Assembly: GCA_905181885.1 (NCBI GenBank)
Contig: CAJIZI010000003.1
Span: 372,001-436,000, forward strand
Origin: an uncultured Gammaproteobacteria bacterium
GTDB lineage: Bacteria > Pseudomonadota > Gammaproteobacteria > Nitrosococcales > Methylophagaceae
Reading direction: 5' to 3'
Length of the DNA: 64,000 nt
Below are positions 42,912-44,983 of the stretch, piece by piece; the stretch's first letter is position 1; every line of letters begins with the position of its first letter. The position numbers and the translations under genes are program-made. Under the pieces are notes generated by a model. The model made no database searches, was not told the origin of the DNA, and saw only the letters and a program-made list of their open reading frames with translations.

Positions 42912-43706
42912 ATGCCTAACCAGCCATTATCACACTCTGCTATTAGCGGGGCTATTGAGCCTCAGTTTTATCAGCAGCTTTCTGATATTTCTATTTATAA
43001 GTCTGTTGGCTCTACCAATGATCAGCTGTGGCAACGTTTAGAGCAAGGATTAAATACGCCCGCAGTTTGTCTTAGTGAGCATCAAACGGCTGGCCGCGGT
43101 CGTCGCGGGGACTCATGGGAGTCACCATCAACAGGTAACTTATATTTATCCCTTTTTTGGCCATTTCCCGCAGATACTTTAAAAAATGGCCTGAGCATCG
43201 CTATTGGGATTGGTTTAATAAATACTCTAAAGAAGATTGGGATCAATGACTTAAAACTTAAATGGCCTAACGATATTTTATGTAAGAAACAAAAGCTTTC
43301 TGGAATTCTAGTAGAATCACGTTTCGGCAACCAACAAAATGTCGTCATTGGGATTGGCCTTAATTTTAAGCTTCCAATTGCCACTCGAAATAAAATACAA
43401 CAACCCACAACCAGCCTTCAACAGCTTTGTAAAAAAATACCCTGTAGAAACATGCTGGCAGGACACATAATTCAAAATATGATTGAAACAATTACACTTT
43501 TCCAAGCACGCGGATTACAAGATTTTTTACCACTTTGGTCGCACTATGATGCACTTCATAATGCCAAAATTAAATTGATTAGTAATGAAAAAACACTTAT
43601 TGCAAAGGCCTGTGGAATAAATGGTGAAGGACAGTTCCTTTATGAATATCAAGACCAAATCCATGCCCTGTCAAGCAGCCACATCAGTATTAGGTTTGCT
43701 TCATGA
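42912..43706 (+). CDS. birA: Biotin-protein ligase BirA, lacking the N-terminal repressor domain
   Basis: Attaches biotin to the carboxyl carrier protein of acetyl-CoA carboxylase. Catalytic domain complete: SVGSTNDQLWQR, biotinyl-AMP loop GRGRRGDSWESP, LKWPNDILCKKQKLSGILVE and VVIGIGLNFKLP, then the C-terminal SH3-like part. From ATG 42912 it has 264 aa; a TTG 22 codons upstream adds only a hydrophobic stretch. E. coli BirA is 321 aa with a winged-helix repressor domain, which I cannot find here in any frame. So this looks like a monofunctional (class I) ligase. It overlaps coaX by 4 bp; birA-coaX is a usual pair. Confidence 0.92.
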   Translation: MPNQPLSHSAISGAIEPQFYQQLSDISIYKSVGSTNDQLWQRLEQGLNTPAVCLSEHQTAGRGRRGDSWESPSTGNLYLSLFWPFPADTLKNGLSIAIGIGLINTLKKIGINDLKLKWPNDILCKKQKLSGILVESRFGNQQNVVIGIGLNFKLPIATRNKIQQPTTSLQQLCKKIPCRNMLAGHIIQNMIETITLFQARGLQDFLPLWSHYDALHNAKIKLISNEKTLIAKACGINGEGQFLYEYQDQIHALSSSHISIRFAS

Positions 43707-44635
43707 AGTTATTAATTGATATTGGCAATACCAGAGTAAAGTACTCGTTTATTGAATCAGGACGCCTTGCAGGCAGTCACTCATTTAACTCCAGTAAAAC
43801 AGGTATTAAATCTTCACTAATTACTGAATTTAAAAATATTGAGGGCGTGGACAGTATTTTCGTCTCTAATGTTGCTGGTGATGAAATTGAACAACAGTTA
43901 ACAGAGTGGGCAGAAAAAAAATGGAAAATCATCCCTACTTTTGTTCGCAGTGAAAAAAAACGATTTGGTGTTACAAATGCTTATTCTGATGTAGAGTCTT
44001 TGGGTGTTGACCGATGGTTATCACTTATTGCGGCCCGTCAACATGCTCGAATGGCTACCTGTATCCTTGATTGTGGCACGGCAATTACTGCTGACATTGT
44101 TACTAAATATGGTCTGCATCAAGGTGGTATGATTTTACCTGGTTTGAGCATGATGCGTGAGTCTCTACTTATAAACACTAATAATTTAAATGAGACTTTG
44201 GAAGAATCGGAATTCAAAACATTGGCTGTCAACACTCGAAGTGCTATCCAAGCAGGCACGTTATACACCGTGACTGCGGCTTTAGAGCGGCTTATTACAG
44301 ATTTAAAAGAGCAATTTAATCAACGTATTCGTTTTATTATTACAGGCGGTGATGCAGAAACCCTAATACCATTATTACCTTCTTCTATCGCTTATTATCC
44401 TGATATTGTTTTGAAAGGTCTTGCCTATTACGCTCGTCAAGGTGAGAAAAAAAGGCATCATGATAAGGTTGCTGAGTTAGAGTCAAATGCCGGTGATTTA
44501 TCAAATGATGGGGTCAATCGCAATATAAAAGTTGAGGCTGTTCAACCTATTGAGGCTGTTCAACCTATTGAGGCTGTTCAACCTGTTGAGGCTGTTCAAC
44601 CTGTTGAGGCTGTTCAACCTGTTAGAGGCTGTTAA
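43703..44635 (+). CDS. coaX: Type III pantothenate kinase CoaX with tandem-repeat C-terminal tail
   Basis: First step of coenzyme A synthesis. Kinase domain of about 255 residues: LLIDIGNTRVKYSF (phosphate 1), SLGVDRWLSLIAARQHA, LDCGTAITADIV and GGMILPGLSMMRESL, NTRSAIQAGTLYTVTAALE. After AYYARQGEKKRHHD comes an unusual tail: five copies of Glu-Ala-Val-Gln-Pro-(Ile/Val). As written the frame ends RGC-stop at 44635. Skipping the single A at 44624 lets the same frame continue through 24 Ala-Val-Lys units to TAA at 44847-44849. The catalytic part is complete without the tail, so the enzyme should work either way. Confidence 0.94.
   Translation: MKLLIDIGNTRVKYSFIESGRLAGSHSFNSSKTGIKSSLITEFKNIEGVDSIFVSNVAGDEIEQQLTEWAEKKWKIIPTFVRSEKKRFGVTNAYSDVESLGVDRWLSLIAARQHARMATCILDCGTAITADIVTKYGLHQGGMILPGLSMMRESLLINTNNLNETLEESEFKTLAVNTRSAIQAGTLYTVTAALERLITDLKEQFNQRIRFIITGGDAETLIPLLPSSIAYYPDIVLKGLAYYARQGEKKRHHDKVAELESNAGDLSNDGVNRNIKVEAVQPIEAVQPIEAVQPVEAVQPVEAVQPVRGC
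44534..44623 (+). repeat. Five tandem 18-bp repeats inside coaX
   Basis: Unit GAGGCTGTTCAACCTATT, last three copies ending GTT. Encodes Glu-Ala-Val-Gln-Pro-Ile/Val five times in the coaX frame. The GCTGTTCAA core differs by one base from the 9-bp unit of the array that follows, so the two arrays share an origin. Confidence 0.98.
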
Positions 44636-44843
44636 AGCTGTTAAAGCTGTTAAAGCTGTTAAAGCTGTTAAAGCTGTTAAAGCTGTTAAAGCTGTTAAAG
44701 CTGTTAAAGCTGTTAAAGCTGTTAAAGCTGTTAAAGCTGTTAAAGCTGTTAAAGCTGTTAAAGCTGTTAAAGCTGTTAAAGCTGTTAAAGCTGTTAAAGC
44801 TGTTAAAGCTGTTAAAGCTGTTAAAGCTGTTAAAGCTGTTAAA
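44628..44843 (+). repeat. 24 tandem perfect 9-bp repeats (GCTGTTAAA)
   Basis: 216 bp of uninterrupted GCTGTTAAA. In the frame that would continue coaX if one base at 44624 were removed it encodes Ala-Val-Lys 24 times, ending Lys-Pro-stop at 44849. The perfect identity implies recent expansion, so copy number is likely to vary between strains (VNTR). Its length also makes assembly here uncertain. Confidence 0.98.
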
Positions 44844-44893
44844 CCTTAAATTTATCATGCCAAGCGATGTAATATAGTCTTTCGCAAAAACAT

Positions 44894-44983
44894 GGAGAGC
44901 TGGCTGAGTGGCTTAAAGCGCACGCCTGGAAAGTGTGTATGGGTTAATACCTATCAAGGGTTCGAATCCCTTGCTCTCCTCCA
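44894..44983 (+). tRNA. tRNA-Ser (GGA anticodon)
   Basis: 90 nt with the long variable arm of class II tRNAs. Perfect 7-bp acceptor stem GGAGAGC/GCTCTCC, D-arm GCTGAGTGGCTTAAAGC, anticodon loop CTGGAAA, variable stem TATGGG...CCTAT-like, T-arm AAGGGTTCGAATCCCTT, encoded CCA. The discriminator is U73 rather than the G73 usual for tRNA-Ser. Confidence 0.96.

Follow-up and report, generated by a model that had tools for sequence, protein, structure and literature searches.

A variable, probably slippage-driven repeat tail at the C-terminus of the putative pantothenate kinase CoaX in Methylophagaceae

Introduction

CoaX is a kinase of vitamin B5, and the coaX gene considered here comes from the Methylophagaceae, a group of methanol-eating bacteria. 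The window, that is the whole 64-kb stretch of DNA analyzed, covers C3:372001-436000 of a 1.5-Mb genome in three contigs. Three described systems come closest to what is found at this gene. The first is the CoaX family itself (PF03309), which residues 1-246 of the protein resemble over the full Pfam match and through solved relatives such as 2f9t. The second is the in-frame coding minisatellites of bacteria, with which the locus shares a unit length divisible by three, copies that are nearly perfect, a species-specific unit and copy number, and a position at the gene end. The third is the phase-variable simple sequence repeats, where the likeness is a tandem repeat within coding sequence and close to a break in the frame. 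A literature search found no paper joining Methylophaga with pantothenate kinase and yielded little of use on a C-terminal extension of CoaX, none of it bearing on the question.

Results

The CoaX domain and its repeat arrays

The gene lies 3' of a biotin-ligase-like gene and is followed by tRNA-Ser, the small SRP RNA and dnaX. Its parts are as follows.

43703..44440, + strand: CoaX, type III pantothenate kinase domain, ending ...LKGLAYYARQ at residue 246 (Pfam PF03309, E 5.7e-44; homologous to solved PanK-III, e.g. 2f9t)
44441..44533, + strand: non-repetitive linker of 31 codons, the start of the C-terminal extension (sequence; unstructured in a low-confidence model)
44534..44623, + strand: five 18-bp units GAGGCTGTTCAACCT(A/G)TT, encoding EAVQP(I/V) (sequence)
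44624..44624, + strand: additional A at which the frame is lost, most likely an indel of the assembly (sequence, frameshift comparison, stop-to-tRNA-Ser distance)
44625..44849, + strand: EAVK-(AVK)23-P-stop, made of GAG, 24 perfect GCTGTTAAA copies, CCT and TAA (sequence; one long helix in a single-sequence model)
44633..44635, + strand: coaX-frame stop codon of the sequence as assembled (ORF reading)

The Pfam match is nearly full-length (profile positions 2-204 of 205), and the DIGN, G.DRW and DCGTA motifs are invariant across the family alignment, the window CoaX included. Judged by these matches, the first 246 residues form an ordinary CoaX domain and the protein is a putative pantothenate kinase.

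Behind the linker, the five 18-bp units stand in the coaX frame, just as a sequence-only reading of this DNA had described them; they encode EAVQPI twice and EAVQPV three times. The same reading held that 24 perfect 9-bp copies follow directly, encode Ala-Val-Lys if one A is skipped and end in a proper stop; the copies (44628-44843), their frame and the terminal CCT TAA (44844-44849) are as it described, but a GAG codon (44625-44627) also intervenes between the extra A and the array. Its suggestion that the second array grew from the first is plausible, with EAV changed to KAV in the same register. The 9-bp array is in frame only if the A is an error. As assembled, the coaX frame stops after ...QPVRGC, giving a product of 310 aa with 64 residues after the kinase domain, or 135 if the array is read through.

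Tandem Repeats Finder reports the coaX array as the sole tandem array in the 64 kb (score 458, 34 copies, period 9), which excludes a chance origin. A dispersed or mobile repeat was also rejected, since the 9-bp array occurs once in the whole genome and most VE-repeat matches in relatives are coaX itself or its broken-off 3' half. The array shows no remarkable RNA fold (fold z-score -1.39).

The tail among relatives

An alignment-based scan for relatives yielded 35 named loci. A coaX match is present in 25 of the 29 same-genus genomes, and in all 25 (24/24 apart from the window) the protein continues after YARQ. An extension also occurs in nearly all coaX copies inspected in the family Methylophagaceae; the family members G031 and G074 have open frames of 261-264 aa with little or no tail. 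Complete same-genus tails have 40 to 159 residues, and the shortest tail, with 19 residues (G009), is cut off by a contig end. In the genus the extension is mostly a fast-evolving 9-bp repeat, usually acidic, of the form (Val-Glu-Ala/Thr/Ser)n, and the unit varies by species: VEA, VET, VES, DAV, ET, EVVETA, KAVEET and others. Copy number and unit thus differ among lineages, as in an in-frame minisatellite. The sequence-only reading had proposed a hypervariable extra tail on CoaX and an alignment of CoaX proteins as its check; the comparison with relatives supports the proposal and widens it to the family.

Methylophaga proper has charged tails that are mostly non-repetitive. The coaX open frames of the sister family of the same order reach only 266-293 aa, and the chains of solved CoaX relatives 219-290 aa. 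Because these are shorter, the extension is a feature of the Methylophagaceae, and the repeat form marks the genus of the window and a close neighbour.

Some side observations were made in these genomes. G017 (L012) carries a Glu-Thr dipeptide array, with GAAACA repeated, instead of a three-codon unit. In G003, a protein that by eye looks like MreC (L134, contig C241) ends AEAVEAVEAVEA..., a VEA-type tail on an unrelated protein, and VESVESVES stands near the end of a protein that by eye resembles a REP-type transposase (L133, contig C66).

The array is often long enough to interrupt the assembly: contigs end within the tail in eight copies, seven from the genus and one from a sister genus. 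For G004, G011, G016 and G026 the missing 3' half turned up at one end of another contig, where it reads in the VEA frame up to a stop, with tRNA-Ser behind it. Such breaks, together with the error-prone assembly of the present genome (see below), make the exact count of 24 copies uncertain. That the length or the very existence of the array is an assembly artefact is nevertheless extremely improbable, given like arrays at this position in many other species, each assembled independently.

Translation and constraint

In degenerate arrays the coaX frame is free of stops and the other two frames hold many (6/24 in G012, 8/23 in G028 and 9/9 in G014). The tail is probably translated, because only the coaX frame is open in these arrays. 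The acidic column of G028 has GAN at each of its 49 codons, and 12 of them differ at the third base only, although these variants are partly copies of each other and represent fewer independent changes than 12. We take this as evidence that the relatives' array is translated and that, in such species, every third position is under weak selection to stay acidic.

Stop position and the tRNA-Ser gene

Downstream of the arrays lie two further features.

44852..44880, + strand: candidate tRNA-Ser promoter, TTATCA, 17 bp, TAGTCT (by eye, by analogy to TTGTCA/TTGCCA-17-TAATCT of relatives)
44894..44980, + strand: tRNA-Ser (Rfam RF00005 tRNA, 55 bits; tRNA-Ser is likewise placed in relatives, mostly with GGA anticodon)

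Where tRNA-Ser follows coaX in relatives, coaX stops 19-57 nt before it. In G023, G008 and G018 (L017, L027, L034) other sequence lies between, with no tRNA-Ser within 400 nt of the coaX stop. The two stops of the window lie 44 nt (AVK frame) and 258 nt (RGC) from tRNA-Ser, so by this comparison only the AVK-frame stop matches the relatives' coaX stop position.

In Methylophaga (L035, L036, L122, L123, L125-L128) the conserved C-terminal LPxxAI has Leu-Pro codons TTGCCA located 17 bp before TAATCT. These two hexamers are the -35 and -10 of a putative tRNA-Ser promoter, and the end of coaX may double as a promoter there. At the corresponding position, immediately 3' of the stop, most of the repeat-bearing relatives carry TTGTCA. 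LPxxAI was accordingly dropped as a functional peptide motif, its TTGCCA codons coinciding with the -35 of the promoter-like site. In the window, the automatic promoter scan chose a pair other than TTATCA-17-TAGTCT.

The extra A: assembly error or natural frameshift

We matched proteins of the relative G013 (391 kb) to 400 kb of the present genome, and in the latter 13 of 204 genes were spread over more than one frame, vs 1 of 201 in the reverse test. Frameshifts occur about once per 13 kb of coding sequence. They affect leuS (leucyl-tRNA synthetase), nusA, frr (ribosome recycling factor), uppS (undecaprenyl diphosphate synthase) and map (methionine aminopeptidase). Living cells need these genes, which argues that the assembly carries indel errors; no intact second copy of map or leuS was found in a search of the whole genome. 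Within the window, single-base frameshifts in conserved genes stand at about 6535 (nusA), 8575, 13769, 22622, 28905 (leuS) and 34915, and the remaining four genes are, in our reading, an ntrX-like regulator, a tRNA-thiouridylase-like gene, dinB and an M16 peptidase. Frameshifts in such conserved genes again point to an indel-prone assembly. Many frameshifts of this genome, like the extra A at 44624, lie outside homopolymers.

Furthermore, in the 21 relatives whose coaX 3' end is complete, the array never continues past the stop. From the indel-rich assembly, the stop-to-tRNA-Ser distance and the lack of repeats past the relatives' stops, we conclude that the array is likely in the coaX frame in the living organism, and that the extra A is most likely an assembly indel.

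Several points weigh against the A being an error. It is outside a homopolymer, and the judgement is made from the assembly rather than from reads. At the measured rate, the prior for an indel in a 316-bp stretch is only about 2-3%, though tandem arrays are harder to assemble. Read-through also runs against the charge usual for the genus: nearly all same-genus tails are acidic, as is that of the 310-aa product (net -4), vs net +18 for the AVK reading, a difference that may speak for a real stop ahead of the array. If the A were real, a natural frameshift would end CoaX after QPVRGC, and the AVK array would be a minisatellite of recent origin, lying untranslated between coaX and tRNA-Ser. This agrees with the sequence as given, the shortened tail would stay acidic, and 24 perfect copies would fit recent growth free of coding constraint. 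It is unlikely in view of the frameshifts in essential genes, the 21 relatives and the tRNA-Ser distance of the AVK-frame stop.

The sequence-only reading had also offered a switch between a short (RGC) and a long (AVK) C-terminus, in which a single-base or copy-number change would toggle CoaX as at a contingency locus. Such a locus might show what is seen here, a perfect tandem array within coding sequence and a coaX-frame stop just inside it. But with unit lengths of 9 and 18 bp, both divisible by three, a change in copy number keeps the frame, the A is in no slippery homopolymer and sits in a frameshift-rich assembly, and none of the 21 relatives is in the off state. We regard the switch as very improbable and do not retain it.

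Discussion

We give a probability of about 80% to the reading that CoaX here bears a slippage-driven, weakly constrained charged tail, not a phase switch, with the A an assembly indel. The CoaX of Methylophagaceae carries a C-terminal extension after the last helix of the domain. In the genus of the window, a 9-bp unit of three codons would undergo slippage or unequal recombination, which would lengthen, shorten and homogenise the array and leave a species-specific unit and length; perfect copies and species-specific units suggest this step. Because 9 bp is a multiple of three, the frame is never disturbed, and expansion would be tolerated. Weak selection may hold a charged residue at every third position, mostly Glu, and Lys in the 24 newest units of the window. 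The real protein would probably be about 381 aa long, with EAVQP(I/V) five times, EAVK, (AVK)23 and P, and its stop just before the tRNA-Ser promoter.

When read through, the window tail is the only strongly basic one seen, Lys replacing Glu, and the next highest net charge in the genus is +4. A single-sequence model predicts the AVK stretch as one long helix with moderate confidence (mean pLDDT 76); in the model of the whole CoaX, which is of low confidence, the extension is unstructured. If the tail has a role, a soluble charged spacer is the likeliest candidate. The sequence-only reading suggested that the tail may bind nucleic acid or membranes; a conserved nucleic-acid-binding role is unlikely because the tails of most relatives are acidic. 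It is also doubtful that a selected function of the tail depends on the charge at every third residue, with the inversion from Glu to Lys here making a basic helix that would change the location or binding partner of CoaX.

Some two dozen species form a natural series in which the repeat tail of a single core enzyme is renewed again and again. The series is useful for asking whether slippage leaves such tails as a tolerated side effect or whether their charge is selected. The locus also cautions against reading phase variation into a frame break that adjoins a repeat when the assembly is rich in indels.

Compared with the known systems, solved CoaX relatives and the sister family of the order end near the kinase domain, whereas the window CoaX has a tail of 64-135 residues. 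Unlike the phase-variable repeats, the window array has a unit length that cannot shift the frame, and its frame is broken by a single base that probably reflects an assembly error. In-frame minisatellites of bacteria differ in that the array here is on a core enzyme of CoA biosynthesis, extends genus-wide and places a charge at every third position, with its sign inverted in the window.
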